Under the pieces are notes generated by a model, which saw only the letters and a list, made by a program, of their open reading frames with translations, did not search any database and had not been told where the DNA came from. A stretch of 64,000 bases of DNA from Candidatus Nanohalococcus occultus (GTDB taxonomy: Archaea > Nanohalarchaeota > Nanosalinia > Nanosalinales > Nanosalinaceae), in the NCBI RefSeq assembly GCF_029207735.1, contig NZ_CP104395.1, positions 62,001-126,000 on the forward strand. Direction: 5' to 3'. The translations under genes were made by a program, and so were the position numbers. Below, piece after piece: positions 5,781 through 34,820 of this stretch (positions are counted from its first letter, which is position 1; each line of letters begins with the position of its first letter).

Positions 5781-5784
5781 AACA

Positions 5785-7282: not shown

Positions 7283-7356
7283 TGGCTCCGCCGCCAACTT
7301 TTCCTCGTCCAAACTCTTTACTTATTTAAGCTATGTTGTTTCAAGTATAGATTACA

Positions 7357-7589: not shown

Positions 7590-7667
7590 ATGACACAACA
7601 CACAACAACGCGAACAACACGCAACGTAAAAGCGAATCAAGAAGGTTCAACGAGGAGATCTCGGTGA
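7590..7667 (+). CDS. 25-residue basic Thr-rich leader ORF
   Basis: The peptide begins MTQHTTTRTT, is Thr/Arg-rich and has 25 residues. Its TGA (7665-7667) overlaps the GTG start of the next gene (GTGA), and its last codons contain the GAGGAG SD site of that gene. This is the arrangement expected of a translationally coupled leader. A second 25-residue ORF with a similar MTNNTT start occupies the same position at 10484. Confidence 0.45.
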   Translation: MTQHTTTRTTRNVKANQEGSTRRSR

Positions 7668-7960
7668 CTGAGCGTTCAGGAACTTATGCTGGCAGAGAAG
7701 GCCGTCACTTCGGTCTAGATAGAGATCCGAGAACTACTGCTGCCAACGACTGGAATAAAGAGTATGGCGGGCAGTCTCCCGGCTATGAAAAAACTTCTGA
7801 AGCCCGTGAAGCCAGCAGAGACGCCGAAAGCGAGTTTGGGGTCGATGATGAAAACCCTTTGAGGTCGGATGGTGGAGAACCAACTATGGCGGATGTAGAT
7901 CACACTCCGAGAAACGGAGAGGGCGTACAACACGTCTATCAGCGAGGCACAGAGAAATGA
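7664..7960 (+). CDS. Small hydrophilic protein, 98 residues
   Basis: The GTG start overlaps the leader stop and has GAGGAG upstream. The protein is highly polar, rich in Gly, Glu, Arg and Asp, has no membrane segment and is probably disordered. Its middle (PGYEKTSEAREA and SEFGVDDENP) aligns with PGMEIPSKNREA and SDFQSGYENA of the next gene, so the two appear to be diverged tandem paralogues. Its stop overlaps the next ATG (ATGA at 7957). Function is unknown. Confidence 0.65.
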   Translation: MTERSGTYAGREGRHFGLDRDPRTTAANDWNKEYGGQSPGYEKTSEAREASRDAESEFGVDDENPLRSDGGEPTMADVDHTPRNGEGVQHVYQRGTEK

Positions 7961-8175
7961 ATACTGGAGGCGACGATACTCCGCACGAACACAGAGTATG
8001 TGAGCTGGCGTACCGAAAAGACCGACCCTCGTACGGCAGGCCGGGAATGGAAATTCCCAGCAAAAATCGGGAAGCCAAAGCATACAGTGAATCAGACTTC
8101 CAGTCGGGCTATGAGAACGCCAGCGCTCTCCAAGAAGCTGTTGGAAAGCTGGATGGCTCGGAGTTAGAGCCTTAA
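7957..8175 (+). CDS. Small hydrophilic protein, 72 residues, paralogue of its neighbour
   Basis: The ATG overlaps the TGA of the preceding gene, which implies coupled translation. The protein is polar, with one Cys, and shares the PGxE...S..REA...S(D/E)F....EN pattern with the 98-residue protein upstream. It ends one base before the convergent topA. The function is unknown. Confidence 0.62.
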   Translation: MNTGGDDTPHEHRVCELAYRKDRPSYGRPGMEIPSKNREAKAYSESDFQSGYENASALQEAVGKLDGSELEP

Positions 8176-8176
8176 G

Positions 8177-10228
8177 CTACCAGTCGTCTTTTGAAGGACA
8201 GTCTGGGTCCACGCACATACTGTAACTTTTCTTCTTTTTTCTTTCCACGTAGATAACAGGTTTGCCGCAGGTGCTACATTCCTGGTCGGTCGAGTTCACT
8301 TTACCGGTGTTAGGCAGCGGATAAGTGTTCTCACAGTCCGGATAGTTGCTACAGCCTACGAAACTGCTTCCCTTGCTTTTTATAATCCGCAGCATACCGT
8401 CCTCGCGGCCCTGTTCTTCGCATTCGTGGCATGGTCCGAGTTTACGTCTTCTCTTACGTTCGTCGTCGATTGTGTTGACTAGTTCGGCGCCGATCTCTTT
8501 TTCCTGGTCTTTGAACTTTCCAAGCATCTTATCCAGGTCTTCTCTGGCTTTCTCTATTACGCCTTCGGAGGTTTCCTCGCCCTGTCTAATCGATTCCATC
8601 TTTTCCTCGAACTCTCTGGTTAGATCAGGGGAGAGTAGATCGGGTATGTGGTCTTCCAGGGTATCGACGATCGCTAAGCCTAGGTCTGTGACGTTTATCG
8701 GATCGCCTTCGATGTAATTTCGGTTGTAAAGCCGGTCGATGGTCGAGGCACGGGTTGCTTTCGTTCCTAGGTTTTCTTTTTCCAGTTTGTTGACGATACG
8801 GGACTGGCTGTAGCGCTGCGGTGGCTGGGTCTCTTTGTCCTCTAAATCGAAGCCTTCGACATCTAGGATATCTCCTACCTCCAGTTCCGGCAGTGCGGCC
8901 TCTGAAACCTTCACGTAAGGGTCGTAGAGATCGAACCAGTTGCGCTCAACTGTTATCTTCGATTTAGCCTGGAAATCATAGTCTTCGACGGTTAACGTCA
9001 TTGTAAGGCTCCGTCTCTTTGCTGCCTTTCCGAAAACTGCGAAAAACCTTTTGACAATCAGATCGTAGACCTTACGTTCCTGTTTTGACAGTCCTGACGG
9101 GTGTTCGCCGGTTGGATAGATCGCAGGGTGCGCATCGTCCTTTTTCTTACCTTGAGTGGTTGAGAGACTGTCCTTTTTCATCACTTTCTTCGCTAAGTCC
9201 TCGTAGCTGTCCTGAGACTTGAGCTTTCCAAGGATGTCCTTGTATCCAATCTTAGGCGGAAGCTTCTGGGATTCTGTACGAGGATAGGAGATCAAGGAGT
9301 TCTCGTAAAGTGTCTGTGCGATCGACTGGGTCTTTTTAGGTGAGATGTTGAACTGGCTGGAGGCCTCGCTCTGAAGCCCTGTCAAGTTAAACGGGATAGG
9401 CGGGTTATGCGAGTAGTTGTTGATGTCGATGTCCGTGACCTCTGTCCGGCCTTCGTCCTTTACCGTCAGGAAGATTCCGTTGGCTTCATCTTCGTCCCAG
9501 ATACGGTCGTCGCTGCCGTAGCTTAGCTTCGCATCGAACTCCGAGTGTTTGAGGAAGATCTCCCAGTAGTCATCGGGTTCGAAGGCTCTGATCTCCCGTT
9601 CCTTATCAGCCAGAATCTTCAATGTAGGTCCCTGTACCCGTCCGGTAGAAAGGGTCTTGTACCGATTGTTTTCCCGTACAGCCTGCATCAATGCCCGGGA
9701 AACGTTTACACCGTAGTAAAAATCCAGTGTGTGGCGGGTAATCCCGGCATCCGTCATTCCTTTATCGAAACCCTCCAGGTTGTCAAATGCTTCCTGTAAA
9801 TCGCTTTGCGTTAGCGTAGAGAACTTCATCCGTTCGATCCGTTCCTCATCCGGATCCGCCATGTGCTTGATTATGTTCGCACCGATCACTGATCCTTCCA
9901 GATCGAAGTCGCATGCGTTGATGTATGTATCAGCTTTCTCGATCTGATCACGTAGGTTGTTGTAGTATTTTTTCACGTAATCCGAGCTATCGGAGGTCTC
10001 GAAGATCGGCCGCCATTCAACGTCGAAAACTGGATAATCCCAGCCCTCGCTGATCTGTTCAAGGTTGAAAATGTGTCCTACTGCCGGAGCGATGATTATA
10101 CGTCTCTCATCTGTCTCGATAACGTAGTTTTTCACGCCTCGGTTAGTCTTCGTCGAGTAGTTTCCGAGAGCGTTCGCAAGCTTCGAGGCTACCTTCGGCT
10201 TCTCACCGATCATCACTGTGGTTTCCAT
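8177..10228 (-). CDS. topA: DNA topoisomerase I (type IA)
   Basis: This 683-residue enzyme has an N-terminal TOPRIM domain (IGEKPKVASKLANAL start, DFDLEG acidic motif), the active-site tyrosine in SLISYPRTES near residue 314, and two C-terminal four-Cys zinc ribbons (CHEC...CSNYPDC and CSTC...CVDPDC). It relaxes negatively supercoiled DNA through a single-strand break. The ATG at 10228 is taken as the start; a TTG at 10243 is in frame and near the predicted transcription start. The gene lies between two clusters of small plus-strand genes. Confidence 0.94.
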   Translation of the reverse strand: METTVMIGEKPKVASKLANALGNYSTKTNRGVKNYVIETDERRIIIAPAVGHIFNLEQISEGWDYPVFDVEWRPIFETSDSSDYVKKYYNNLRDQIEKADTYINACDFDLEGSVIGANIIKHMADPDEERIERMKFSTLTQSDLQEAFDNLEGFDKGMTDAGITRHTLDFYYGVNVSRALMQAVRENNRYKTLSTGRVQGPTLKILADKEREIRAFEPDDYWEIFLKHSEFDAKLSYGSDDRIWDEDEANGIFLTVKDEGRTEVTDIDINNYSHNPPIPFNLTGLQSEASSQFNISPKKTQSIAQTLYENSLISYPRTESQKLPPKIGYKDILGKLKSQDSYEDLAKKVMKKDSLSTTQGKKKDDAHPAIYPTGEHPSGLSKQERKVYDLIVKRFFAVFGKAAKRRSLTMTLTVEDYDFQAKSKITVERNWFDLYDPYVKVSEAALPELEVGDILDVEGFDLEDKETQPPQRYSQSRIVNKLEKENLGTKATRASTIDRLYNRNYIEGDPINVTDLGLAIVDTLEDHIPDLLSPDLTREFEEKMESIRQGEETSEGVIEKAREDLDKMLGKFKDQEKEIGAELVNTIDDERKRRRKLGPCHECEEQGREDGMLRIIKSKGSSFVGCSNYPDCENTYPLPNTGKVNSTDQECSTCGKPVIYVERKKKKSYSMCVDPDCPSKDDW

Positions 10229-19958: not shown

Positions 19959-22900
19959 TTACTGAGTTGCCAAGTTGACGGTGTCCTTGCCTGAGAGCTT
20001 CTCGCTGATAGAGTTCCAGTTAGCCATGGCTGCTGCGGCTGAACGTGTATCGCTCGAGCTGTAACCTGCTACAACTAGGGCGTCCTGTCCCTGGCTGAAG
20101 GCGTCGTTGACCATATCAACTACCTGATCGCCTTCGCTGTACTCGTTGCCGGTCCAGGTCTGGTTGTTCTCAGCGAGATCCGCTACAAGCTGGTTGACCG
20201 CTGGTCCTCCAACAAGGATCATGTTGCCAACTGCCTCCGGACTCGATACTTCGCTGTCAAGAGCCACGAAGCTCTCAGCTGGGAAACCGGTCCCGCTGTA
20301 GCTAGGGTTCATGCTGACCGAGCTACTGTCTCCGCCCGCTGAAAGGCTTCCGCCGGCAGCTGTGAATGCTGCGCCGACAACTGCTTGGGCGTCAGGATAG
20401 CTAATCGTCAAACTACCTTCCTCGTTCGAGTCATAGCTGGTGAAGGCTCCGAACACGTCAAAGCCTTCAGTTACATCGTCGTTGCTCTCAAGAGAATCAG
20501 TTTCCCTCATCGAAGGATCAGAGAACGTCGGAGCTGAAAGCTCAAGTCTTTCCTCACTTGAACTGTAATCAGCTGTCACAACGTAACCATGCTGGTTCTC
20601 GCTGTCAGTTTCCTCCTCGATAAACACTGCTCCTGGCTCGCTGCTAGGTAGAGCGCTGAACAAACCGCTTGTAACGCCATTGGTTTCCTCAGAATCCGTC
20701 GAGAAATACTCTACGCTCCCGGAAGAACCTCCGAAAACCGTATCGCCCGTTGTGTAATCGTCTGAACCGTCAGCGTCGTCAACAACAGTCTCACCGGAAT
20801 CAAACTGGCTGTTACCTCCATCCATGTGTTTGATGTTCGATGAGAAGGCGTTCAGGTTTGAACCTGCCACTGTGGCACTTGAGGAGCCGGTATCAAGTAC
20901 GGAGTAGGCGATGATGTCTTCTCCGTCCGTGTACTGAGAGTTCCCGGACTGCTCGACATACAGGTTCGATGTTGCGCTCAGATCGGAGAGATCCGCAGAT
21001 CCAGAAGTCACTACGGTATCTCCACTGTCTAGGTTCGAGTCAGCTGAGCTTACAATTGCTTCACCGTTCTCGAATACGTCGCTGTCTCCGCTGTCGTCGG
21101 TGAACTTCTCGCTGCTCGCAAAGCTAGCTAAAGAGGCTCCAACATCCATGTCGCCAGCAGAAACTGTTGATCCAGCTGAATAGGTTGTCTGGAATCCTCT
21201 GATACGGAAATCAGGGTTGTCTGCGCTTGCGGTCTCATCTGTAACTGTGCCACTCCCGCTCATGTCAATGTAGACGGAGTCTGAAGCATCCTGTCCTGAA
21301 GACGTTCCTGGTACATCAAAGTACTTGACAGGGTTACTGACTCCTGTCGCAGATCCTACAGTGATTGTGGATGCGTCGCCGATCGTCCCTGTTCCTCCTG
21401 AGAAGTAGACATCGGTGTCGGCATCACCTCCTCCGTCGTTACTTCCTACATCGAAGATCACGGCTTCGTTCGTTCCATCTTCTCCTTCTGTCCAGCTACC
21501 CGTTAAGGTTTGATCCGTTGTGGAAGATCCTGCTGTCAGTCCGTTGTCTACAAGCACAGGGTCTTCTGCGTTATATGTGCCATCGTTTCCTAGATCGATG
21601 AAAACAGAGTCTCCGGCCTCAAGAGTTCCGGAAGTTCCGCCTGTGTCAACAACGTCTACGCTTGCCGAGCTAACTGAGCTTAAGGACTTGCCTGCGTCCT
21701 CATCGGTGTCTTTAACAGAGGTCAGCTGGTTCAGTCCGTAATCAATTGTGCTTACGTCCGTATCTGAACCTGACTTAACGGTTACTGACGTGATTCTTGT
21801 CTCACTTGCTGCTACGGTATTGTCGTCAGTTCCTCCTGACTCATCGTAGATGACCTCGCCATCCGTATAACTGCCGGTGTCTGAGGCATCATCGTAGTAG
21901 TTAACAGCTGATCCGAAGTTCGTTAAATCAAGGCTTCCGGAGGTTATGACTGTGTCGCCAGACTCAAGTTGGCTGTCAGATCCTCCACCTGACTGGTCAA
22001 TAATCGCTTCGCCCGAGCTGTAAGCGCCGTCATGATCGCTGTCACCCCAGTAAATGTTGCTTCCGAAGCTCTCAACAGCGTTCCCGTCGTAAGTTGTGGA
22101 TGTGGCGCCGTTGGTCTTGAGGGTCGCCCTCAATATATCGTCTTCAGTCTCATAACTTCCGGTCGATGTGCCATCGTCAATGAAGAACTCTCCTGTGTTT
22201 CCCTCAGAGTCTCCGAGCGAGTTAAACCCGATAAGGTTTGTTCCTAGTCCAAGTCCGGATGGGTCCTGTGATGGCTCGTAGAACGTTAATCTTCCGCCGT
22301 TTTCAGTTTCAAGCGTTGGGAAAGCGGTTGTGGTTCCTGAAGAGCTTCCTCCGGTTTGAACTCCGCTGCCGTCTGTTCCTGCGTCCGTTCCCCAGGCAAC
22401 TTCGAAGTAAGGATCAGAACCTGTTCCTTCAAGGAAAAAGTGGTATGTCTGGCCGTCAATGATCTCCGTGTCTCTGTAGACGTCGTTGGAGGTATCGGCA
22501 TCCAAGGTGACTTCGACGTCTGAGCCTGAAGCTCTGTCCGTCAGATCGATTGTGGCCTGATCTCCGCTTGAAAGAGTCTCTGTTGAGTCTCTATCGATTC
22601 CTGTGGTTTCCCAGTAATGGCTGAATCCTCCGGCATCTGTGATGAAGTACTCATCTTCTCTTACCTGGGCGCCTTCGACCCCGTGGATTGTCTCTCCGTC
22701 ATCGTCGGCTAGTTCGATGCTGGATCCATCGTAGTGTAGGAAATCAAGGTTTGAATCCTGGTTTAAGGATGCTGAGACCTGGATGGTCTCATCGTTCCGG
22801 GCTGAGAACTCGATCTCTTCGGTGGAATCAGCTTCTGAACTGTCAGGGTTCAAGCCTCCGAACTGGAACTCTATGCCTGGGAAAGCATCGTGGACGAACG

Positions 22901-24038
22901 TTTCATCGGCAACGACAGCGTCTTCGTCGTCTTCCGGCGCACCAACGTATACATCGATGCTTGAAACTGAGTCAATGCTGTCGGATCCGCTGTCTCCGTT
23001 GAACTCGACGTAGGTACCATCAACATCGTCGTCTTCATCGTTCTGAATAGGCTCTCCATCGGAAAGAGTCATCTCTGCGGAACCAATCGAGAAACTGACG
23101 GTTCCAGCTGACTGGTCGTTGCTTGTCTGGATGATGTTATCAACCCGGACTTCCTGACCGTTTACCGTGAACGATTCATCTTCCTCGTATTCGTCTAACT
23201 CTCCGTTGACGGTTATGGCCGCGGTATCGGAGCCTGTAACTGCTTCAACTCCGATCGTGACTTCTTCGCCATCGATCGAGATGGTTGAAGGCTCTTCGTC
23301 TGTGGAGACAGAAACAGTCTCCGATGATCCGTAAAGAAGCAGCTCGTCTGTGTTGTCCTTGTTGTCTTCGGCGATTGTGTATGTTGTACCGAACAACGTG
23401 ATTTCCTCTCCTGCGACCTCCGAGTCCGTGAAATCAAGAGTGTCCTCGAAGTTCGCCTGAAGATTGTAAAGATGATCGGAAGGTGAGGCACCTACGCTGG
23501 TAGGTGTGGAAACATAGACTTCCGGATCTTCGTTGTCAAGTTCCTCTGCGTCGTTACTGAATGTTACCTCGAGTTTGCCGACGTTCAGGTAGTTTGTTAC
23601 GTCGGTTTCGTCTCCGCCGTCGTCTCTGAATGTTGTCTCCGATAAAACGTTTAACTCATCCTGCGTCAGTGTTTTCCTGACTGCGTTGATCTCATCTCCG
23701 AAGTACAGATCATCGTTCCGGGTGTTAAGTGTAACGCCTTCAGTCGCCGACCAGCCGAAACCGCCTACGGAAACAGACTCGGTCGTGAAAGCTGCGTTCC
23801 CTAAACCGGCAGCGATACTGGTTGCTCCTAGAACATCCGCGCTCTTCGCGGACTCTCCTACCACAACCGTGGTATCTACCATCCCGTCTTCATCGATAAA
23901 CTGTGAAGGATACTCGCCTAGAGATCCACTTGACCCACTGGACTGGGCAGCGCCCATAGAAGCTGCTCCTGCCAAGGTCGCTCCAACCAGTAGTGCGGAA
24001 CCTGCGAGTGTCTTTGTAATCTTCTTGATATTTCGCAT
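19959..24038 (-). CDS. S-layer protein with a long acidic repeat insert (paralogue 1)
   Basis: This is a secreted 1359-residue protein. A signal peptide (MRNIKKITKTLAGSALLVGA, cleavage probably near AQSS) leads into the archaeal S-layer N-terminal domain with VVVGESAKSADVLGAT. The C-terminal domain contains ILVGGPAVNQLVADL and DALVVAGYSSSDTRSAA. This is the Methanococcus/Thermococcus-type S-layer architecture. Residues about 620-1105 are an insert of acidic Gly/Ser/Asp repeats that is absent from the second paralogue. It is extremely acidic, as expected for a halophile surface protein. Confidence 0.88.
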   Translation of the reverse strand: MRNIKKITKTLAGSALLVGATLAGAASMGAAQSSGSSGSLGEYPSQFIDEDGMVDTTVVVGESAKSADVLGATSIAAGLGNAAFTTESVSVGGFGWSATEGVTLNTRNDDLYFGDEINAVRKTLTQDELNVLSETTFRDDGGDETDVTNYLNVGKLEVTFSNDAEELDNEDPEVYVSTPTSVGASPSDHLYNLQANFEDTLDFTDSEVAGEEITLFGTTYTIAEDNKDNTDELLLYGSSETVSVSTDEEPSTISIDGEEVTIGVEAVTGSDTAAITVNGELDEYEEDESFTVNGQEVRVDNIIQTSNDQSAGTVSFSIGSAEMTLSDGEPIQNDEDDDVDGTYVEFNGDSGSDSIDSVSSIDVYVGAPEDDEDAVVADETFVHDAFPGIEFQFGGLNPDSSEADSTEEIEFSARNDETIQVSASLNQDSNLDFLHYDGSSIELADDDGETIHGVEGAQVREDEYFITDAGGFSHYWETTGIDRDSTETLSSGDQATIDLTDRASGSDVEVTLDADTSNDVYRDTEIIDGQTYHFFLEGTGSDPYFEVAWGTDAGTDGSGVQTGGSSSGTTTAFPTLETENGGRLTFYEPSQDPSGLGLGTNLIGFNSLGDSEGNTGEFFIDDGTSTGSYETEDDILRATLKTNGATSTTYDGNAVESFGSNIYWGDSDHDGAYSSGEAIIDQSGGGSDSQLESGDTVITSGSLDLTNFGSAVNYYDDASDTGSYTDGEVIYDESGGTDDNTVAASETRITSVTVKSGSDTDVSTIDYGLNQLTSVKDTDEDAGKSLSSVSSASVDVVDTGGTSGTLEAGDSVFIDLGNDGTYNAEDPVLVDNGLTAGSSTTDQTLTGSWTEGEDGTNEAVIFDVGSNDGGGDADTDVYFSGGTGTIGDASTITVGSATGVSNPVKYFDVPGTSSGQDASDSVYIDMSGSGTVTDETASADNPDFRIRGFQTTYSAGSTVSAGDMDVGASLASFASSEKFTDDSGDSDVFENGEAIVSSADSNLDSGDTVVTSGSADLSDLSATSNLYVEQSGNSQYTDGEDIIAYSVLDTGSSSATVAGSNLNAFSSNIKHMDGGNSQFDSGETVVDDADGSDDYTTGDTVFGGSSGSVEYFSTDSEETNGVTSGLFSALPSSEPGAVFIEEETDSENQHGYVVTADYSSSEERLELSAPTFSDPSMRETDSLESNDDVTEGFDVFGAFTSYDSNEEGSLTISYPDAQAVVGAAFTAAGGSLSAGGDSSSVSMNPSYSGTGFPAESFVALDSEVSSPEAVGNMILVGGPAVNQLVADLAENNQTWTGNEYSEGDQVVDMVNDAFSQGQDALVVAGYSSSDTRSAAAAMANWNSISEKLSGKDTVNLATQ
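20720..22190 (-). repeat. Degenerate DxDGxYxxGE-type repeats within S-layer protein 1
   Basis: About eight degenerate units have an acidic loop followed by Y/F-x-x-G-E: DSDHDGAYSSGE, DASDTGSYTDGE, DSGDSDVFENGE, EQSGNSQYTDGE, DGGNSQFDSGE, DLGNDGTYNAED and similar. The best copy fits an EF-hand-type calcium loop at positions 1, 3, 5 and 12. Many units are followed by SGDTVxTSGSxDL. Boundaries are approximate. Confidence 0.7.
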
Positions 24039-24161
24039 AATTTAGTACCTATTACATTTACAATGAGTTCCACCGGGATTTAAGCTTGAGCAAAAACTCA
24101 AAGAGAAAAAAGTCAGAGACTTTCTGGCATTCAATCCCCGGTCATGTTTTCGAGGCGTTTT

Positions 24162-24467
24162 TCAACCTCTTCGAGATCTTCCTGACTGTAAATAGTCTCT
24201 GTGCCTGACTGCGAAAACCACAGTCTCTGAATCATTGTAATCAAAGTAAACTCGGTGATCCAAACCGTTTTCCTTCAGCTTTAACCTGTGAAACTCGATT
24301 CCAAACTGAGGCTTGCTGATGTAACTGATGTGGTCTCGATCTAACTCTCCGGTTAAACGTTCTTTTATCTCCAGAGCTAGCTCTCTCCGGTTGTAATCCT
24401 CTTGAGCATCTATGTCCTTCTCAGCTTCTTCTGTAATCTTCACTCGCTGATCATTCGTATTTCTCAA
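24162..24467 (-). CDS. RelE/ParE-family toxin, probably frameshifted at its C-terminus
   Basis: The 101-residue protein has the RelE/ParE core, with conserved segments FHRLKLKENGLDHRVYFDY and TVVFAVRHRDY. It would be an mRNA interferase or gyrase-type toxin and overlaps the antitoxin gene by 17 bases. A GTG at 24443 (KITEEAEKDID start) is a plausible alternative start. The C-terminus after RHRDY reads as basic non-family sequence, whereas a one-base shift restores YSQEDLEEVEKRLENMTGD ending at 24131, so the gene looks frameshifted. Confidence 0.75.
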   Translation of the reverse strand: MRNTNDQRVKITEEAEKDIDAQEDYNRRELALEIKERLTGELDRDHISYISKPQFGIEFHRLKLKENGLDHRVYFDYNDSETVVFAVRHRDYLQSGRSRRG

Positions 24468-24678
24468 TGATGTCGTCTATACTTGTTGTTTCCACATCGC
24501 CCTGTTTCAGCTTCAAAGCTCGCAAAAGCAGTTCCTGATCAAGCTCGCTGTCCTCTTCCAGCTTCTCCCTGAGTGCCTGACGGATGTACTCGGAAGGACT
24601 CTTGAAGTTCTTTCTTTCCGCAGTTTCCTTAATCTCGTCTTTCAAACCGTCGGGGACGTCCACACTTATTCTTGCCAT
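24451..24678 (-). CDS. Ribbon-helix-helix antitoxin
   Basis: The 75-residue protein has an N-terminal ribbon-helix-helix (RISVDVPDGLKDEI...FKSPSEYIRQALREKL) followed by an acidic toxin-binding tail. It precedes the RelE-like toxin and has a GAGGTG SD upstream. It would repress its own promoter, and three 11-bp-spaced repeats lie just upstream. Confidence 0.85.
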   Translation of the reverse strand: MARISVDVPDGLKDEIKETAERKNFKSPSEYIRQALREKLEEDSELDQELLLRALKLKQGDVETTSIDDIIEKYE

Positions 24679-24692
24679 TCTATAACACCTCG

Positions 24693-24721
24693 ATGTGATA
24701 AATATGTGATGAAGATGTTAA
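24693..24721. promoter_or_regulatory. Phased operator repeats of the minus-strand TA module
   Basis: ATGTGAT occurs at 24693-24699 and 24704-24710, followed by ATGTTAA at 24715-24721, with an exact 11-bp period. It lies 15-43 bp upstream of the antitoxin start and overlaps the expected TATA region, as expected for autorepression by a ribbon-helix-helix protein. Confidence 0.6.
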
Positions 24722-24832
24722 AAATATTTCTTTACTTCTCAAGCTGTTTTGGATTAACCTTTCTGCCATGTCCTGCCCGAGCGCTATAAACAATATACGG
24801 TCTTGAAAAGTTACCTTGAATTACCATAAGAG

Positions 24833-24847
24833 TATTAAATTTTAATA
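24833..24847. promoter_or_regulatory. Palindromic operator/TATA of the plus-strand TA module
   Basis: TATTAAA-T-TTTAATA is a perfect palindrome centred 23 nt before the ATG at 24863. It can act both as the TATA element and as a ribbon-helix-helix operator. Confidence 0.55.
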
Positions 24848-24862
24848 TCGGAAAGCTATTTT

Positions 24863-25108
24863 ATGCCATCTACCAGTATCAATCTGCCTGAAGGACTCAA
24901 AAAACAGTTAGAGGAACGGCTTGAAAGAGGCGACTACCAGAACACCTCCGAGTTCATCAGGGAGGCTATAAGAGAGAAGCTGAAAAGAGAGACCCAGCTC
25001 CACCCTAAGGAGATACAGCGGATAATGAACGTCCGTGAAAGAGAACGAAAAGGAGAGCAAAAATGGATTCCATTTGAACAAGTCAAGGAAGAGCTAGGGA
25101 TAGAATAA
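24863..25108 (+). CDS. Ribbon-helix-helix antitoxin (second module)
   Basis: The 81-residue protein starts STSINLPEGLKKQLEERLER and continues NTSEFIREAIREKLK, a ribbon-helix-helix fold, then a charged tail. It is one base from the toxin gene that follows. The N-terminal half resembles the antitoxin of the neighbouring divergent module, so the two are related, but their tails differ and cross-neutralisation cannot be assumed. Confidence 0.85.
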   Translation: MPSTSINLPEGLKKQLEERLERGDYQNTSEFIREAIREKLKRETQLHPKEIQRIMNVRERERKGEQKWIPFEQVKEELGIE

Positions 25109-25109
25109 G

Positions 25110-25421
25110 ATGGAGATCGTAGTCGAACCTGGAGCGAAGCAAGACCTGAAGGAAATAGAGGGTCCTGTTAGACAGACTATAGGGAAGGCTATAGAAAATC
25201 TGGCTGAAGATCCGCTGCCAGAGAACAGCTACGTAATCTATCTGCCCGACAACACGGAAATACAGGTCCTGAAACTACAGGAAGAGGACAGAAACAGCAA
25301 GTTAAACCATAGAGTAACTTACGATATTGTAGAAAACGACCATGTCCGTGTTTACGGAGTCTTCTCAAGACAGTCCGGCTACCAGAACATCAAACAAAAT
25401 ACAGCCAAACGCGTAGAATAA
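25110..25421 (+). CDS. RelE-family toxin (second module)
   Basis: The 103-residue protein opens MEIVVEPGAKQDLKEIEG and has the family pattern LNHRVTYDIVENDHVRVYGV near the C-terminus. It is likely an RNase-type toxin. It follows the antitoxin with a one-base gap. Unlike the neighbouring module, the reading frame looks intact. Confidence 0.8.
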   Translation: MEIVVEPGAKQDLKEIEGPVRQTIGKAIENLAEDPLPENSYVIYLPDNTEIQVLKLQEEDRNSKLNHRVTYDIVENDHVRVYGVFSRQSGYQNIKQNTAKRVE

Positions 25422-25544
25422 TCACAGCTGCCTGTAAAACGAACCAGGCAAACATTTTTTGTAAAAACTTTTTCTCTTACCCCCGGCTTTAACTCAGGGC
25501 CGAATAACTTGAAATCGGGAAATAAAGAAAGAAAAAGGAAATGT

Positions 25545-25564
25545 TGAAGGTCTCTCGACCTTCA
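25545..25564 (-). terminator. Stem-loop terminator of the second S-layer gene
   Basis: TGAAGGTC-TCTC-GACCTTCA is a perfect 8-bp stem with a 4-nt loop. On the minus strand it follows the S-layer stop by 6 nt and is followed by a T-rich run. It closely resembles the terminator of the first S-layer gene. Confidence 0.8.
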
Positions 25565-25570
25565 GTGGAC

Positions 25571-28336
25571 TTACTGAGTTGCTAGGTTGACAGAAGTCTG
25601 TCCTGAGACTTCGTCACTCCAGTCTCCCCAGTTGGTGACTGAACGTGCTGCTGCACGTGTGTCGCTTGCAGAGTAACCTGCTACGACAAGTGCGTCCTGA
25701 CCTTCTGTGAAAGCGTTGTTGACCAGTTCGATTCTCTGATCTCCTTCGCTGTAGTCAGATCCAGCTGCTGTCTTGTTTGCTGAAGCAAGTTCAGAAACAA
25801 GGTTGTTGACTGCTGGTCCTCCGACAAGGATCAGGTCATTCTGCTTGAGCTGGCTTGGATTCTCACTGTCCAGTGCGACAAAGTCGCTAGCTGGGAATCC
25901 TGCTCCGTTGTAAGTAGGAGTCATGCTTGTTGCAGATCCTGCGCTTCCGCCTGCTGAAAGGCTTCCGTCAGCACCTGTAACTGCTGCTCCTGCGACTGCC
26001 TGACCTTCAGGCTGATGTAGTGTGAAGCTTCCCTGTTCGTCGGAATCGAACTCGGAGTAAGCTCCGTAGACATCGTAAGCGGCAGATACATCGTCATCAG
26101 ACTCAAGATCTACGTAGCCGTCGCCCTGTCCGCCTGTGTAATCAGGCTGGTCGATTGTGACTTCTTCTTCTCCGTCATCCTCTCCTGGAGTGAAGACGTA
26201 TGCGTTCTCGTCATCGTCTTCGTTCTCAGGCTGGAAGACTGCTACAGAAGGTTCTGCTAGTCCGTACTCGTTGTTGCTTGTGTCGACTGACGCGCCGGAG
26301 TCTACACCGAAGTGTAGGTCGTCGTCTGCATCAAGAGTTGCTCTGTAGGTGATTCCCTGATCGGAAACTTCGACTATGTCGGTTGCGTTTCCGTTTCCTA
26401 CATCTAGGTTCAGATCTCCGTCTGTTGAGCTGTCTCCTCCGTCTTGGATGTCAACAGTTACAGTCTTCATGTCTGTGCTCTCCGTTGATGGGATTTCCAG
26501 TGTGAAGTCTGCTGTGTCTGAGCTACTTGAAACTCCTGTTGCAAGCTCTGTGCTCTGCATGAAGGAAACTGCTGAATCAGACTCTGTGTCTAGAGGTGTG
26601 AAGACTGATGTTTCAGTTCCTACGTTGTTGAATTCTGCGTCTCCCCAAGTTACACTTAGAGTTGGTTCTTCGTCAGATTCGTCTCCGGTGTCGACTTCGA
26701 AGTGGTAGGTCTGTCCATCGATGATTTCTTCTCCCTGTCGGACATCGTCGTCGCTGTCAGATTCTGTTCTGTTGCTGTCGTCTAGCTCGACTTCTACTGT
26801 CTCGCCTGTGACTACGTCTCTTATGTCTGCTGTTGTGTCAGCTCCGTCGACGTCGATTCCTGTGACTTCCCACATGTGGCTGAAGTCTCCTGCGTCTGTG
26901 AATAGGTACTGATCTTCTTCAGCTTCTAGACCTTCAGCTGTGACGAAGTCGTCTCCGTCTCCGTCAGCTAGTGCTACAGAGTCGTCGTCATCTCCGTCGT
27001 AACTATCGACGTATCCGAATGTCTGAGAGACTGAGTCTCCGTTTGCGCCTGTGAAGCTGATCTGTGCTTCGTCGTCGCCTGATGTGGATACTTCGATCTC
27101 TTCGACGTTCTCCCCTGCTTCCATTGTGTCAGGGTTGAGTCCGCCGAACTGTACTTCAACGTTCTCGAACATTGGGTGGCTGAATGTTTCGTCAGCTGTT
27201 AGAGCGTCTTCATCGTCGTCCTGTGCTCCAACGTAAACGTCAATGCTTGAGATTGAGTTGATGTCTGAGAATCCTGTTCCGCCGTTAAGTTCGACGTATG
27301 TTCCGTCGATCTCGTCACCGTCAGCGTCTTCTACAGCCTGACCGTTGATCAGTGTCATCTCAGCTGATCCGATTGAGAATGTTACTGTTCCTGCTGACTG
27401 GTCGTTGGATGTCTGGATGATGTTGTCGACTCTGACTTCCTGATCGTTTACTGTGAACGATTCATCTTCGTCGTACTCATCTAGCTCTCCGTTGACTTCG
27501 ATTGCTGCTGTGTCTGATCCTGTTACAGCTGTTACGGAAAGTGTGACTTCTTCGCCGTCAATTGTGACTGTCTGAGGTTCTTCGTCTGTGGATACAGAAA
27601 CTGTTTCTGATGCTCCGTACAGAAGAAGTTCGTCGTCGTTGCCTGTGTTGTCTTCGGCAATTGTGTAAGTTGTGCCGAATAGCTCGATCTCTTCTCCTGC
27701 GACTTCGTCGTCTGTGAAGTCAATGGAGTCTTCGAAGTTAGCCTGTAGATTGTACAGGTAACTCTCGTCGTTTACTGAGCTCTCTGAAGGTACGGAAACG
27801 TGTAGAACTGGATCTTCGTTGTCTAGTTCATCTGCGTCGTTTCCGAACGTGATGTTCTGTGATCCTACGTTCAGGTAGTTTGTGATGTCGGTTTCGTCTC
27901 CGCCATCGTCACGGAAAGTTGTTTCTGCTAGGATGTCTAGTTCATCCTGTGTTAGTGTTTCTCTAACTGTGTCTAGTGCGTCTCCGAAGTAAAGCTGGTC
28001 GTTTCGTGTGTCTAGTGTGACGCCGTTTGATGCTGACCAACCGAAGCTTCCGCCTTCTGCGGATACGGATTCTGTTGTGAATGCTGCGTTTCCTAGTCCT
28101 GCAGCGATGTTTGTTGCTCCTAGAACGTCTGCTGTCTTTGCTGACTCTCCTACTACTACTGTAGTGCCGTCAACTGTACCATCTTCGTCTACGAATGGTG
28201 CTGGATAGTCGCCAAGGGTATTTCCACTGGACCCACTTGACTGAGCTGCGCCCATTGCAGATGCTCCTGCTAGGGTGGCTCCGACAAGTAGTGCGGATCC
28301 TGCGACTGTCTTTGTAATCTTCTTGATTGATTTCAT
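25571..28336 (-). CDS. S-layer protein (paralogue 2)
   Basis: This 921-residue secreted protein has signal peptide MKSIKKITKTVAGSALLVGA, the S-layer N-terminal domain (VVVGESAKTADVLGAT) and C-terminal domain (LILVGGPAVNNLVSEL, DALVVAGYSASDTRAAA). It aligns along its length with paralogue 1 except for the latter's repeat insert. The ATG at 28336 starts the signal peptide; the longer frame upstream is part of a structured 5' leader. It is probably the main surface-lattice protein, judged by its elaborate promoter region. Confidence 0.9.
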   Translation of the reverse strand: MKSIKKITKTVAGSALLVGATLAGASAMGAAQSSGSSGNTLGDYPAPFVDEDGTVDGTTVVVGESAKTADVLGATNIAAGLGNAAFTTESVSAEGGSFGWSASNGVTLDTRNDQLYFGDALDTVRETLTQDELDILAETTFRDDGGDETDITNYLNVGSQNITFGNDADELDNEDPVLHVSVPSESSVNDESYLYNLQANFEDSIDFTDDEVAGEEIELFGTTYTIAEDNTGNDDELLLYGASETVSVSTDEEPQTVTIDGEEVTLSVTAVTGSDTAAIEVNGELDEYDEDESFTVNDQEVRVDNIIQTSNDQSAGTVTFSIGSAEMTLINGQAVEDADGDEIDGTYVELNGGTGFSDINSISSIDVYVGAQDDDEDALTADETFSHPMFENVEVQFGGLNPDTMEAGENVEEIEVSTSGDDEAQISFTGANGDSVSQTFGYVDSYDGDDDDSVALADGDGDDFVTAEGLEAEEDQYLFTDAGDFSHMWEVTGIDVDGADTTADIRDVVTGETVEVELDDSNRTESDSDDDVRQGEEIIDGQTYHFEVDTGDESDEEPTLSVTWGDAEFNNVGTETSVFTPLDTESDSAVSFMQSTELATGVSSSSDTADFTLEIPSTESTDMKTVTVDIQDGGDSSTDGDLNLDVGNGNATDIVEVSDQGITYRATLDADDDLHFGVDSGASVDTSNNEYGLAEPSVAVFQPENEDDDENAYVFTPGEDDGEEEVTIDQPDYTGGQGDGYVDLESDDDVSAAYDVYGAYSEFDSDEQGSFTLHQPEGQAVAGAAVTGADGSLSAGGSAGSATSMTPTYNGAGFPASDFVALDSENPSQLKQNDLILVGGPAVNNLVSELASANKTAAGSDYSEGDQRIELVNNAFTEGQDALVVAGYSASDTRAAARSVTNWGDWSDEVSGQTSVNLATQ

Positions 28337-29283: not shown

Positions 29284-29471
29284 AACCAACTCTGTGTCTT
29301 GAAACTGTATAAAGTTCGAACCGTTTCTTTTGCTCAAATCGGAGATCGAGTCAAATTTCGGATCTGGTCTTTGATCTCTATATAAACAAAACCTGTCTTA
29401 TTTGATAAAAAACGTAGTTTTGTCAAATATAAACCACTTGATTTAAAATTACAGCGGTGTTTAATCAAATT

Positions 29472-30662
29472 ATGGACTCGAGAAAATTCAACAATAGTAG
29501 AGCTGGAGATATCTTTGAATATGAAAAGGACGGTGAGAGGGTCTCTACGTTTGTCCCGGAGCCTCTTCCACCAGAGATAAGGTATGATCAGGAGACTGTA
29601 AAGCTCATTGAGGATGCGGCAAGCAACCTAAATGATCTGAAGGGTACGGGCAGAAATCTTCCGGATCCGAATATTTTCATAAGGCCCTATATTTTGAAGG
29701 AGGCTGTACTCAGCTCCCAGATAGAGGGTACTCAAACTTCCTTCGAGGAAGCGGTAGTACGCAGCGAGTCCGGTGACCTGGAACCTAGCAGAGAAGCTAG
29801 AGATCTTGAGGAAGTCCGGAACTACGTTGAGGCTCTGAATTATGGTTTAGAGCGGTTAAACGTTGAACCTCTGACGGTTGACTTGATAAAGAGGATACAT
29901 GAGAAGCTGATGTCTGGGGTGAGAGGAAAAGATAGATCGCCTGGGCAGTTTCGGGAAAAACAGGTACATATAGGTGAGGTAGGGGTCTCCAGAGAGGACG
30001 CGGAATACGTTCCGATGGCTCCTGAGAAGATCTCTTCCGCTATGGAAGATCTTGTTGATTTCATGAATGAGGATAGAGGGATGCCTTATCTTGTCAAATC
30101 TGCGTTGATACATTATCAGTTCGAGGCCATCCATCCGTTTGAAGATGGGAACGGCAGAATGGGCAGGCTTCTGATAATAATTGATATGATACGGTCTGGG
30201 AAGCTTTCTCAGCCTCTACTTTATCTGAGTGAGTACTTCAACAACAATAGAGGTCGGTACTACGATAAGCTTCTTAGAGTCAGCAGGGATGGTGAATACG
30301 AGGAGTGGATAGATTTCTTCCTACGCGCTGTAAAGACTCAGTCTTCCAATTCTACTAGCACCGCGGTAAAGATCCTAGAAAAGAGAGAAAAGTACAAACA
30401 AAGTCTGCGCCAGGGGGAGGTACCTGAAAACTGTGTTGTGCTTATGGAGAACGTATTTGATCTCAGGCCGCGTACTATCACCCAGGTTGCTGAAGAACTA
30501 GGTGTAAAGTACCATGCTGCTCGAAACTACGTCAATGTGCTTGTTGAACACGGAGTGCTTGAACAGAGAGACAAGAAGGGAAGGGAAAAACAGTATGTCG
30601 CAGGCGAGCTTCTCAGAATGATGGAGGAAGAATCGTCCCGGGTGGAAACGAACGTTATCTGA
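29472..30662 (+). CDS. Fic-domain AMP transferase with a winged-helix C-terminus
   Basis: This 396-residue protein has an N-terminal Fic_N region (PEPLPPEIRYD...), the inhibitory motif SSQIEGTQ ([S/T]xxxE[G/N]) near residue 80, the active site HPFEDGNGRMGRL near residue 220, and a C-terminal winged helix (TITQVAEELGVKYHAARNYV). Such proteins transfer AMP to hydroxyl side chains and are held inactive by the inhibitory helix (class II). A GTG at 29457 is in frame, but TTTAAAA at about 29442 places transcription close to the ATG at 29472. Confidence 0.92.
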   Translation: MDSRKFNNSRAGDIFEYEKDGERVSTFVPEPLPPEIRYDQETVKLIEDAASNLNDLKGTGRNLPDPNIFIRPYILKEAVLSSQIEGTQTSFEEAVVRSESGDLEPSREARDLEEVRNYVEALNYGLERLNVEPLTVDLIKRIHEKLMSGVRGKDRSPGQFREKQVHIGEVGVSREDAEYVPMAPEKISSAMEDLVDFMNEDRGMPYLVKSALIHYQFEAIHPFEDGNGRMGRLLIIIDMIRSGKLSQPLLYLSEYFNNNRGRYYDKLLRVSRDGEYEEWIDFFLRAVKTQSSNSTSTAVKILEKREKYKQSLRQGEVPENCVVLMENVFDLRPRTITQVAEELGVKYHAARNYVNVLVEHGVLEQRDKKGREKQYVAGELLRMMEEESSRVETNVI

Positions 30663-30712
30663 ACTTTACTTCACCACTGGTTCTTTAATATCTTCCAATG
30701 GAATTTCTGTGT

Positions 30713-31234
30713 ATGGACAATCAGAAAATACTTCAGATGGTGGTCTTGTTATTCGGGCTGTTTTTCGCAGGTTCATTTGCCTTCGGAGGTATCGCAAACT
30801 ACGGTAATATGATTTCTACGCCGAACTCTCAGAACTCGGGTGGTTCGAACCAGCAGCCGGCCACACTTCCGTCGACTAACTATCAGGAGACTGGTTTTAA
30901 CGTAAGTATGGAGGATAGGAGGAACTTGGCGCGGATGAATGATGTTGTGTTCGTATCACTGCTTTACAACACTTCTGAGCAACGTGAACAGCTTCAGTCT
31001 CTTGAAGGATTGGAGGCTAATTTCAATGGACGGGTTTTCATCGAGGTTGTAAACTCTTCGGAGACCACGAGATTTATCACGCTCGGAGAGGGTACGCCTA
31101 GAGCGGTTTTAATCAGCGCTCGGCAAAGTGCGGCGGTTGTATCCGAACCAACAAGCTCGAATATTGCTTCAGCAGCCTGTAGCTCGTTGATTAACTGGGG
31201 TTCGACAGCATCTTACTGTACCCAGTATCAGTAA
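30713..31234 (+). CDS. Membrane-anchored extracytoplasmic protein, 173 residues
   Basis: An N-terminal membrane segment (MVVLLFGLFFAGSFAFGG) precedes a Ser/Asn/Gln-rich linker and a small alpha/beta domain (DVVFVSLLYNTSEQREQL, GRVFIEVVN, RAVLISAR). The domain pattern might be thioredoxin-like but lacks an N-terminal CxxC; two Cys lie near the C-terminus. The ATG at 30713 is at leaderless spacing from TTTAATAT (about 30682). Confidence 0.65.
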   Translation: MDNQKILQMVVLLFGLFFAGSFAFGGIANYGNMISTPNSQNSGGSNQQPATLPSTNYQETGFNVSMEDRRNLARMNDVVFVSLLYNTSEQREQLQSLEGLEANFNGRVFIEVVNSSETTRFITLGEGTPRAVLISARQSAAVVSEPTSSNIASAACSSLINWGSTASYCTQYQ

Positions 31235-31266
31235 CCCTTTATTGTGCGATATCAAATACCTAATTC

Positions 31267-32022
31267 GTGGCCGACGAAAAACTCAGTAAGTGGGTTCGGA
31301 AAAAGCTGGATGAAGGTGTCTCCAAGCAGAGACTTAGGAAGGTCTTGGAAAACTCCGGTCACGATCCCTCGATTGTAGACGAGGCTGACAGCCCGTTTGA
31401 CGCATCTTCAAACGGTAAAGCCGAAAACAGTTTTGAGCCAGACGACGGTCAGAACTCTGAAGACCAAGACGGCAAGATTGATCTCTCCGGACACGAAAAG
31501 AAACGTGAACGGGACGATGAAGACGATGAAAGCGGCTTAAAAAATCTCAAGCCGTCGTTGCCACGTCCAAATTTCTCGATGCCGAAGCCAAAGTTGCCGG
31601 AGATATCTCTAAGTAAGCCTGAACTCGATTTTGATTTCAAGGTTCCTTGGAGAGCGTTAATTGTTGTTTTCATAATCGGAGTGGCTTTTTACGGTGTAAC
31701 TAAAGCGTTTAACTCGCCGGACTCTCAGGTACAGACTCCGGAATCGGTAGAACAACAACGGGAGTTCGATGGCTGTCCGGATATCGGCGTACGGATTGTA
31801 TCGGCTTCAGCTTCCGCTTTCGAAGTTAAAATTGATGCGAGGGTTTCCCGAGGTCCTGGAACGGTTATAGCAGAGCTTTACAACAACGATAATCTTGTTG
31901 CTATCCAGCAGGATCGTTTTAACGGCGTGAAGACATTTACATTCACCGGGGAAACCGGTGACTCGGTTGTGCTTCGTCCGGTGGGCTGTTACAGTGTTAG
32001 AGATGTTATATCTCTGCTTTAA
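31267..32022 (+). CDS. Single-pass membrane protein with an N-terminal helical domain
   Basis: The 251-residue protein starts with GTG. Its N-terminal module, LSKWVRKKLDEGVSKQRLRK followed by VLENSGHDPSIVDEA, is a small helical domain often found at the N-terminus of archaeal membrane proteins. It is followed by a long acidic/Pro-Lys linker, one transmembrane segment (ALIVVFIIGVAFYGV, about residue 140) and an external beta-rich domain with two Cys. Function is not recognised. It overlaps the convergent alaS by four bases. Confidence 0.7.
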   Translation: MADEKLSKWVRKKLDEGVSKQRLRKVLENSGHDPSIVDEADSPFDASSNGKAENSFEPDDGQNSEDQDGKIDLSGHEKKRERDDEDDESGLKNLKPSLPRPNFSMPKPKLPEISLSKPELDFDFKVPWRALIVVFIIGVAFYGVTKAFNSPDSQVQTPESVEQQREFDGCPDIGVRIVSASASAFEVKIDARVSRGPGTVIAELYNNDNLVAIQQDRFNGVKTFTFTGETGDSVVLRPVGCYSVRDVISLL

Positions 32023-34820
32023 ACGTCGAAGGCTTTCGCAAAGCTTTCATCGCCCTGAATGTTCTCCGAGTACTTTTCCAGGTTCTCATCGGCATCATAG
32101 TCTTCATGGTAAGAAGCACTTACTGCGCCTTTCTCACCGATCAGGGTCACCGATGCCTCGAAGCCACTTGAGAGCTTCTGGGCGACCTGTATCAACAGTC
32201 CGACGTTTTCCGTAGGCACTTCGGTTTCAACAACTCTGTCTTCCATTCGGCTGCGTACCTCGCCTTCGATACCGGTTTCCAGTTCCTCGACTGTTTTCTC
32301 ATTTTCCCTCCAGGCACTGAATAGACTTTCAACCCGTTTGAAAACCGTGCCGGTTTCTGTCTCGGCAGGTTTCCGGTCTTCACCTATGAAATCCGATAGC
32401 TTCTCGATACGTTCTTTCAGGTTCGAGTTATCGTTTTTGAACCTCTCAATCGAGTTCATCAACTGGTCTGGTTCAACGCTTAGAAGCTCACACAGCTTTC
32501 TTTCGGTCTCCCGGTAGGTTCCGCCCAGCATCTGATCGCTGACGGTCTCGACACCTACAAGTCCGGCGACATCATCGATCCGGCTCTCAACCTCTTTCAT
32601 GTAGTCTCTTGCGGCCTCTCCTGCCTTGTATTCTAACCGGATAACTCCATCCTGGATCCGCCTCGAGTTCGTTATGTAAAACTCCTCGATATGAGAAGTT
32701 GTTGTTAGATGGGTTCCTCCACATGCTTCTATATCCAGATCCTCTATCTCGATCAGCCGGATGTTGTTGCCTGGAGGCGCTCCTCCCTGGTATATCCTGA
32801 AACCGTATTTTTTCTCGGCCTCGGCTTTCGACATCTCCAAGACATTTACCTTATGATCCTCGCTAACAGCGGTCTGAACCTTTGATTCGATGCTATCAAG
32901 GGTCTCTTGAGTCAGTTTCTCATAATGTGTGATGTCCAGACGGCCTTTTTCCAGTGTCTTTGATGCCCCGCTCTGGTAGATATGTTCTCCGAGCTGTTCT
33001 CTTGCTGCCGCATTTACCACGTGGGTTGCGGTGTGGTGTTGGGTCAGCTGCTTTCTCTTGAACCCGTTTACCACTCCTTTGACCGTTTTGCCTTCGGAAA
33101 GCTCATGATCCGGAGCTTTGTGTAAAATCACTCCGTTCTGTTTCTGGACGTCTTTTACCTGGAAGTTGTTGATCTTTCCAACGTCGTGGAGCTGCCCTCC
33201 ACCCTCTGGGTAAAACATGGTTCTATCCAGTACGATCCATTCGTCTATAACCTTCAGAACCTCTGCTTTGAAATCGAAGTGTTCGGTTCCGTTCTGCCGG
33301 TAAGGCTCGTTGTTTTCGTAGTAAAGTTTCTCCGTGTCTTCAACTCCTTCGAGATCGAAGCCTTCCTCTATTTCCTTCACGACTTCTTCGCTACCTCCAA
33401 GCATGGCGTAAAAGTCTTCAGGAACCTTGTAGCCGGCTGACTCCATCATCTCCGGGCTGACTCCGTGGGACTCGTATAGCTCGATCATCTCCTCGACTGT
33501 TGGCTGGCCATCAAGCTTACCTAGCTCTTCTTGTGCTTTTTCACGGGCTTTCTCGTACTTTCTTTCCTCTACGTCCAAGATTTCCTCTATCTCATCCATT
33601 GAGTCCAGAAGCTCTGGGAACATAGGCTCTAGTTCTTCTGCGTTCCACCGTGCGACTTCAACCAGATCGATGTCCCAGTCGTACTTTTCGATAAAATCTT
33701 TGGCTCGTCGGTAGATCATACGCAGGTTGTGGCCTCCTCCGGTGTTCGAAGGGATCTTTCCGTCCGCTAAAGCGAAAATCAGTGCGCGTGTATGCTCTGC
33801 GATCGAGTAAAGAGCAGCAGCAGGCTTAATAGCTTTCTTTAACTCGTCTACGTCTTCATCTATTTCTTCTGCGATCTCAACCCATTTTTCCTCGATGTCT
33901 TCTACCTCATCTACGTTTAACTCGGATGAGTAAGGTAGGAACTTTTCCCAGACCTCATCATCGGTCTCCAAACCAGTCCTTTCTTTCAGTTTCTCGACGG
34001 TTTCAGGCATCACACACTCGTAGCTGGTTTCCGTTCCATGGCTGATCCAGGTGATTCTTTCCTGTCCCATACCCATGTCCAGTACTTTCAGGTCGAGTTC
34101 CTCGTAGCCATCCGGTGTCTGCTCGTAGAACATGTATACCTGGTTCCATAGTTCGAGGCCGTCAACGAAAAACTCCATACATGCTCCGAGGTTTCCGCCT
34201 CCGCCCCAGGAGTCTTCGTGTAGTATTAGTTTCTCCTTTGGAATCCCGAGACCCTGGACTGCGAACTCGAACATGTCCTTGAAATACCGGTCCTGGTCGT
34301 ATTCATCTGCTTCCCGGAAACAGGTCTGTCCGATATGGTTGTGTAAAACATAATGGCGGCCTGTGATACCTACGTTGTCAACATCGTTAAACCTTAGAGA
34401 TGGCTGTGGTACCACCAGTTCCGGTGCCGGTGGCTCGGCTTCACCGCTTACTACGTATGGCTGGAAGTTATAGATTGATCCGCCTACGAACTCGACGTCG
34501 TCTCTCCAGCGAGCAACTACAGGGTACCGATCGATCGGTGTGTAGCCTCTATCAGCCATGAAGTCTCTGAAACGTTCCCATGCCTCGATGTAGCCAAAAC
34601 TTTTTTCGGTCGGAGAGTCGTTGATGAATGTGTATCCGCCGGAGCATTCTGGTTCGCCACATACCTCTCTGTCCTCGTTGAAGCTCCAGAACCGCATTCC
34701 GCAGTTAGTACATTTTCCACGTGAGAAGCCTTTTTCCTTTAGTATATCTGTTGCGAAGAACTTCTCAGGGTTTTCACTTGCTTCCTGTTTTATCTCTTTT
34801 TTGAGTTCAGAGAGGCTCAT
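32019..34820 (-). CDS. alaS: Alanyl-tRNA synthetase, archaeal type
   Basis: This 933-residue class II enzyme begins with the archaeal N-terminal zinc-like extension (CTNCGMRFW, CGEPECSG), then the catalytic core, the editing domain with HHTATH near residue 593 and CGGTH near 697, and a C-terminal oligomerisation domain. It charges tRNA-Ala and hydrolyses Ser- or Gly-tRNA-Ala. Length and the N-terminal module match archaeal AlaRS. Confidence 0.96.
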   Translation of the reverse strand: MSLSELKKEIKQEASENPEKFFATDILKEKGFSRGKCTNCGMRFWSFNEDREVCGEPECSGGYTFINDSPTEKSFGYIEAWERFRDFMADRGYTPIDRYPVVARWRDDVEFVGGSIYNFQPYVVSGEAEPPAPELVVPQPSLRFNDVDNVGITGRHYVLHNHIGQTCFREADEYDQDRYFKDMFEFAVQGLGIPKEKLILHEDSWGGGGNLGACMEFFVDGLELWNQVYMFYEQTPDGYEELDLKVLDMGMGQERITWISHGTETSYECVMPETVEKLKERTGLETDDEVWEKFLPYSSELNVDEVEDIEEKWVEIAEEIDEDVDELKKAIKPAAALYSIAEHTRALIFALADGKIPSNTGGGHNLRMIYRRAKDFIEKYDWDIDLVEVARWNAEELEPMFPELLDSMDEIEEILDVEERKYEKAREKAQEELGKLDGQPTVEEMIELYESHGVSPEMMESAGYKVPEDFYAMLGGSEEVVKEIEEGFDLEGVEDTEKLYYENNEPYRQNGTEHFDFKAEVLKVIDEWIVLDRTMFYPEGGGQLHDVGKINNFQVKDVQKQNGVILHKAPDHELSEGKTVKGVVNGFKRKQLTQHHTATHVVNAAAREQLGEHIYQSGASKTLEKGRLDITHYEKLTQETLDSIESKVQTAVSEDHKVNVLEMSKAEAEKKYGFRIYQGGAPPGNNIRLIEIEDLDIEACGGTHLTTTSHIEEFYITNSRRIQDGVIRLEYKAGEAARDYMKEVESRIDDVAGLVGVETVSDQMLGGTYRETERKLCELLSVEPDQLMNSIERFKNDNSNLKERIEKLSDFIGEDRKPAETETGTVFKRVESLFSAWRENEKTVEELETGIEGEVRSRMEDRVVETEVPTENVGLLIQVAQKLSSGFEASVTLIGEKGAVSASYHEDYDADENLEKYSENIQGDESFAKAFDV

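Follow-up and report, generated by a model that had tools for sequence, protein, structure and literature searches.

The toxin–antitoxin (TA) modules relBE1 and parDE1 protect the superintegron of Vibrio vulnificus from deletions between its direct repeats (Szekeres et al. 2007, reviewed in PMC5543033). Recombination at cell-surface islands has been described in Haloquadratum (PMC4535781; PMC4033161), and the sap locus of Campylobacter fetus carries multiple recombining S-layer gene copies, which give rise to sapAB recombinants (PMC4943207). TA modules in variable islands are already known. In the limited set of papers searched, we found no report of unrelated TA families recurring at S-layer genes.

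The locus described here lies in a 64,000-base stretch of DNA (the window, meaning the whole stretch that was analyzed), which spans positions 62001-126000 of one 948,351-base contig from Candidatus Nanohalococcus occultus, a member of the Nanohaloarchaeota. It contains a short and a long S-layer gene, SLB and SLA, with two RelE/ParE-type modules between them. As in the Vibrio superintegron, RelE/ParE-type modules are situated within an interval bounded by direct repeats. Unlike in that system, the repeats consist of a pair of protein-coding paralogues whose exact identity extends over no more than 21 nt, TA genes also flank single S-layer genes, and stabilization is hypothetical. With the cell-wall genomic island GI1 of Haloquadratum walsbyi and replacement flexible islands, the locus has in common that S-layer genes of an archaeon lie between variable flanks and that surface genes recombine (PMC4535781, PMC4033161), a comparison based here on one genome per species. 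TA genes are the recurring cargo here, whereas the text of PMC4535781 makes no mention of toxins. The presence of several S-layer copies that recombine is shared with the sap locus (PMC4943207), but the window has no visible invertible promoter or sap-type array, carrying instead two old paralogues with homogenized ends. The modules themselves resemble archaeal RelBE and bacterial ParDE, in which an RHH antitoxin gene is followed by an overlapping or adjacent gene for a toxin of the RelE/ParE fold. Taken singly they are ordinary, and it is their placement that is unusual.

Anatomy of the locus

The features of the locus are collected in Table 1. Neither S-layer gene is interrupted, and the two are read in one direction, SLB being transcribed before SLA. 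A first-pass annotation of this DNA had described two S-layer genes in direct orientation, with two divergent TA modules exactly between them. This layout held throughout, once the S-layer genes had been reassigned to the minus strand. The two window proteins scored 83.1 and 62.5 bits against PF05124 (S_layer_C; cut-off 23.9), which places them in the MJ-type S-layer family, and 43.8 and 37.1 bits against TIGR01564 (cut-off 25). The S-layer profile also matched a solved S-layer protein, 9fsa. SLB and SLA are predicted to be ordinary S-layer proteins of the PF05124 family. The strong codon bias of SLB (ENC 35, compared with 47.6 for SLA) suggests that it is the major coat protein; in the related genome G006, the corresponding values are 39.5 and 48.3.

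Table 1. Predicted features of the S-layer locus, in window coordinates.
Feature	Position	Strand	Evidence
SLA, long S-layer protein, 1359 aa	19959..24038	-	PF05124 2.5e-23; TIGR01564 above cut-off
P0003, RelE/ParE-type toxin, module 1	24162..24467	-	ParE_toxin 3.7e-5, above cut-off
P0004, RHH antitoxin, module 1	24451..24678	-	RHH_1 5.1e-7; DUF6290 2.3e-8
Divergent promoter region common to both modules	24679..24862		184-bp gap
P0005, RHH antitoxin, module 2	24863..25108	+	RHH_1 6.3e-8; TIGR02606 ParD family 2.4e-9
P0006, RelE/ParE-type toxin, module 2	25110..25421	+	ParE_toxin 3.4e-4, just below the Pfam cut-off alone
SLB, short S-layer protein, 921 aa	25571..28336	-	PF05124 5.3e-17; TIGR01564 1.5e-9
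P0008	28888..29337	-	Beside the S-layer gene in the window and in G006 (61%; L034 5704-6102)
SoFic-type protein adenylyltransferase	29457..30662	+	Fic 2.3e-21; PADLOC SoFic 1.3e-111

SLA has a central region (about residues 601–1125) that is not present in SLB and is conserved in the G006 orthologue, the only other carrier among the entries compared. Many repeated D-x-D-x-D-like acidic motifs, which resemble calcium-binding loops, were noted at about residues 620–1130 of SLA; SLB is without them. The 5' side of SLB is occupied by variable cargo, a gene for a Fic protein with an HTH domain, classified as SoFic. P0008 and its G006 counterpart gave no match in the Pfam scan.

The two toxin–antitoxin modules

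Each module consists of a toxin of the RelE/ParE superfamily and an adjacent RHH antitoxin in an operon arrangement, as is found in type II systems. P0003 has a TTG start and overlaps P0004 by 17 nt, and P0005 and P0006 are separated by 1 nt. In a profile search of the PDB, the toxin profile, built with homologues, matched archaeal RelE (1wmi, 3.7e-6) and RelE3 (3bpq), and the antitoxin profile matched ParD (5ceg). Judged by sequence, each module is predicted to be an ordinary RHH/RelE–ParE system. An imperfect 11-bp repeat, ATGTGATAAAT, present in 3.2 copies at 24693-24727, directly upstream of the P0004 gene, could be an RHH operator. Matches to sigma-70-type promoters in the window were set aside, the host being an archaeon.

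The two modules are not recent duplicates of each other, as they share 22–29% identity, and a search of the surrounding DNA yielded none of the repeats that would indicate an insertion element. An RHH/ParE module in G006 was the nearest to P0005/P0006 in that comparison (52 and 41% identity). Because it has the opposite orientation relative to the S-layer genes, it is not certain that the two simply descend from one module at this position. The module closest to module 2 was an RHH/ParE pair in G014 (L070 1417-2002; 62 and 55%), a genome from which no S-layer gene was recovered.

Toxin–antitoxin genes at the S-layer loci of relatives

Two of the four toxins found by TA family searches of the 948-kb genome sit at the locus (p about 0.003 for 20 kb). 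However, the window had been picked because of its TA modules, so the relatives provide the real test of the association. TA systems were present within 6 kb of an S-layer gene in five of eight relatives from the same family and in two genomes of another family. Their types were mutually unrelated, comprising RelE/ParE, HEPN-MNT, TumE, PIN-like, MazF-like, UPF0175 and DUF4258/DUF2283. Frequently, the TA genes came directly after the 3' end of the S-layer gene; modules were often 100–300 bp past the stop codon, and both orientations occurred.

Between SLB and SLA, G006 carries DUF4258/DUF2283 and RHH/ParE modules, while the S-layer pair of G015 (L036 9338-10948) encloses a gene for a 423-aa AAA/DUF4143 ATPase and the one UPF0175 gene of that genome. 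Modules were also found at single S-layer genes. That of G007 has HEPN-MNT 109 bp downstream and MNT-HepT upstream, that of G009 is accompanied by about six modules (three TumE, DUF433/DUF5615, RHH/ParE-like and MarR/PemK), and that of G003 by UPF0175/DUF3368, DUF433/DUF5615 and RHH/UPF0175 genes. In the other family, G020 has a gene for a ParE-like toxin just 3' of its single-copy S-layer gene, and G023 has two TumE genes in the same position, on a contig that includes no more of its S-layer gene than the end. No TA genes were found at the S-layer gene in the family relatives G002, G008 and G010. Since relatives have different, unrelated TA pairs beside the same coat genes, the S-layer spot attracts or keeps TA pairs.

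The size of the effect was assessed by scanning small ORFs against Pfam: 125 from nine genomes, each at most 6 kb from an S-layer gene, and 144 control ORFs from 16 control stretches in eight of those nine. The S-layer regions yielded at least 23 TA-type matches in 96 kb. In the controls, which cover 208 kb, the TA-type matches among the 25 families listed, of 48, were a single PIN and a single MazE. The matches listed near S-layer genes included RHH (7), UPF0175 (4), TumE (3), DUF433, DUF5615, DUF2283 and ParE (2 each), HepT (1) and others, as well as four nucleotidyltransferases, not all of which are necessarily TA proteins. Background TA counts came from family searches and the 16 control stretches. 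Genome-wide searches for eight TA families, tallied from the coordinates of the resulting family lists, gave 17 matches in 83 kb around the relatives' S-layer genes versus 1 in 208 kb of control sequence. Counted by locus, TA genes were present at five of eight S-layer loci versus 1 of 16 control stretches (Fisher p = 0.007). Based on the genome-wide totals for six toxin families, 9 were near S-layer genes and 1.2 were expected (p = 4e-6). When only the four families nameable beforehand were counted (ParE, PIN, HEPN and HepT), the excess was modest, 4 versus 1.0 expected (p = 0.02). The association between TA and S-layer genes is real in the genomes studied and strongest for the rarer TA families, and few lineages underlie it. 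TA placement exceeds chance, and to that extent the earlier interpretation is supported.

Such an excess might also arise if, in a compact genome, the space on the 3' side of a large gene with strong termination simply tolerated insertions, and if TA modules were the commonest small mobile cargo. The position of the modules shortly past the stop codon, in both orientations, agrees with this neutral explanation, as does the fact that TA-rich genomes (G003, G007 and G009 are TA-rich genome-wide) have TA genes elsewhere too. In contrast, the TA-poor genomes G006 and G015 have their few detected TA-type genes largely at the S-layer locus, and we consider the neutral explanation possible, but rather unlikely.

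Similarity and recombination between the S-layer genes

SLA and SLB are 59% identical overall. The stretches of clear nucleotide identity between them that had been pointed out previously were recovered, with 300 nt at 74% (22890-23189 and 27176-27475), 258 nt at 74% and 118 nt at 83%. These stretches arise from the similarity of the proteins, and the DNA itself is not near-identical. No exact match is longer than 21 nt, and 11 of 60 codon-shuffled control pairs had a match of that length. As there is no excess over these controls, we rejected recent gene conversion between the window genes, and recombination-competent direct repeats flanking the TA modules are likewise absent.

Over residues 1–375, SLA and SLB are 76% identical, while each is 45–51% identical to its G006 counterpart, and G006's own pair is 68% identical. 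In trees of this segment, the paralogues grouped within their genome in four genomes: the window (100/99), G006 (94/92), G002 (90/87) and G015, in which the two copies were mutually nearest by branch length, their fork not being resolved. Orthologue clades were rejected (p < 1e-58). The C-terminal 160 residues of the window SLA and SLB also clustered within the genome (94/99). Over residues 451–600, however, the window SLA grouped with the G006 SLA, with moderate support (80/78), and within-genome pairs were rejected (p = 0.027 for the window SLA and SLB, and 0.036). The pair is a mosaic, in which the ends appear to have undergone concerted evolution and the middles to follow orthology.

Homogenization of the ends in the window is old, given the short longest exact match and a codon identity at identical residues of 0.53–0.57, compared with 0.39–0.46 expected. 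Codon identity in the G006 pair was at expectation over residues 226–375. A different reason for the similarity of the ends could be common functional constraint, through export, anchoring or lattice formation, and synonymous sites that are near random even at 89% protein identity (G006 residues 226–300) are consistent with this. Nevertheless, constraint seems a somewhat unlikely explanation. The paralogues came to cluster by genome on four independent occasions, at 45–50% identity between genomes, and weak residual codon identity persists at the 5' end of the window genes (residues 1–50, z = 3.6). Furthermore, a fresh tract is found in G017, which matches Candidatus Nanosalina J07AB43. There, two S-layer copies (L035 about 5098-8276) agree at every base over a 280-bp tract at the gene start, with near-identical sequence upstream and an abrupt fall to about 60% identity past the tract. 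Scaffold gaps (Ns) adjoin these tandem copies, which could thus be two population alleles scaffolded together, but the sharp boundary still indicates recombination. Subject to this caution about the gaps, S-layer recombination appears to be still active in the family. Recombination between paralogues is thus supported in the family, by the segment trees and the G017 tract, but not as a current tract in the window.

G006 has a third S-layer paralogue, SLC (L034 16317-18857), directly 3' of SLA, which is more divergent and not homogenized.

The modules and retention of the gene pair

The first-pass annotation had proposed that the antitoxins penalize loss of S-layer diversity: recombination between the directly repeated genes would fuse them and delete the interval, so that the TA pairs would keep both genes in place. 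The geometry of the locus fits this idea, S-layer paralogues have recombined in the family, and G006 and G015 likewise have TA-type genes between the pair. The blocking of direct-repeat deletions by relBE1/parDE1 in the Vibrio vulnificus superintegron (reviewed in PMC5543033) is a precedent. Even so, the comparison with relatives makes the proposal very unlikely. The short–long pair is present in the window, G006, G015 and G002, and in the complete genome of G002 the two genes are separated by an empty gap of 180 bp. SLA and SLC of G006 are also directly adjacent with no TA genes between them. By comparison of genomes, absence of TA does not entail loss of the interval, as G002 retains its pair. 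The searched TA toxin families are absent from G002 genome-wide, its one PIN protein being of a conserved 605-aa type, so the empty gap shows only that TA genes are dispensable for the pair. In addition, TA genes flank single-copy S-layer genes (G003, G007, G009 and G020), where direct-repeat fusion is impossible and a guarding role cannot explain their presence. The shared DNA in the window is no longer than in the codon-shuffled controls, and no fused product joining the N-terminal part of SLB to the C-terminal part of SLA was recognized among the single-gene relatives.

Both observations that the first-pass annotation had named as refuting its proposal were thus made for this locus, namely a relative that keeps both S-layer genes without TA modules and the lack of identity tracts in the window pair. 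Taken together, the TA pairs do not seem to be required to prevent fusion of the coat genes, and the earlier interpretation as a whole is partly supported. Reading the single-gene relatives themselves as SLB–SLA fusions is unsupported; the diagnostic C-terminal segment is SLB-like in G003, G009 and G010, and ambiguous in G007.

A probable variable surface-gene cassette

The explanation that we favor, with a probability of roughly 0.6, is that this locus forms a surface-gene cassette of Nanohaloarchaeota with variable flanks, in which TA and defence genes gather and are kept. An old short–long pair, SLB then SLA, would have had its conserved ends homogenized by gene conversion, with the middles and the extra central region of SLA remaining distinct. 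The intergenic flanks, above all just 3' of the S-layer gene, would repeatedly gain and keep unrelated TA and defence genes; in the window, the two RelE/ParE-type modules would in this way have filled the SLB–SLA gap, with the SoFic gene on the other side. Surface genes may be exchanged between strains via recombination in the conserved ends and flanks, as we infer from one genome per species. TA genes linked to an indispensable, highly expressed gene would seldom be lost by deletion, and would accumulate. Their retention may be passive, through this linkage, or active, through a penalty on replacement, and protection of the S-layer allele against replacement, if any, would be a by-product.

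Protection could instead be the main effect, if TA modules beside single or paired S-layer genes made replacement of the allele by incoming DNA lethal and so stabilized the surface type. In G007 and G009 the single gene has modules to its left and right, in other genomes modules lie between the pairs, and stabilization of islands by TA modules is known (PMC5543033). However, three relatives are without modules, and we regard such a lock on the allele as unlikely. A related and quite unlikely possibility is that Nanohaloarchaeota S-layer loci are locked by interchangeable TA modules, with each lineage recruiting whichever TA family is available, so that loss or replacement of the coat allele is lethal. 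Were this true, addiction would hold surface identity, which governs contact with viruses and hosts in these ectosymbionts.

Should further genomes bear out the association, addiction modules would have a recurrent home at the major surface gene of a group of obligate archaeal ectosymbionts. Hitchhiking of TA genes on indispensable genes could then be tested against active stabilization of surface alleles, with unrelated TA families at one position providing a natural experiment. The S-layer mosaic illustrates the evolution of a two-protein coat in a reduced genome.

With regard to the favored cassette, the genomic setting of the locus was compared between genomes. The flank at 30698-34820 of the window is common to the window, G006 and G007, and an HSP20 flank on the other side is common to the window and G007. 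Within the same flanks, the cargo beside the S-layer gene varies, being Fic, small ORFs or MNT/HepT. The window, G006 and G007 thus show the conserved flanks and variable content of a replacement flexible genomic island. In G009, G008, G015 and G002, the S-layer gene is apparently near ribosomal protein genes instead (L13 in G009 and an L18e-type gene in G008; G015 and G002 were judged by gene order alone). G009 is in this ribosomal setting, yet has modules, showing that the association follows the gene and not one chromosomal site.
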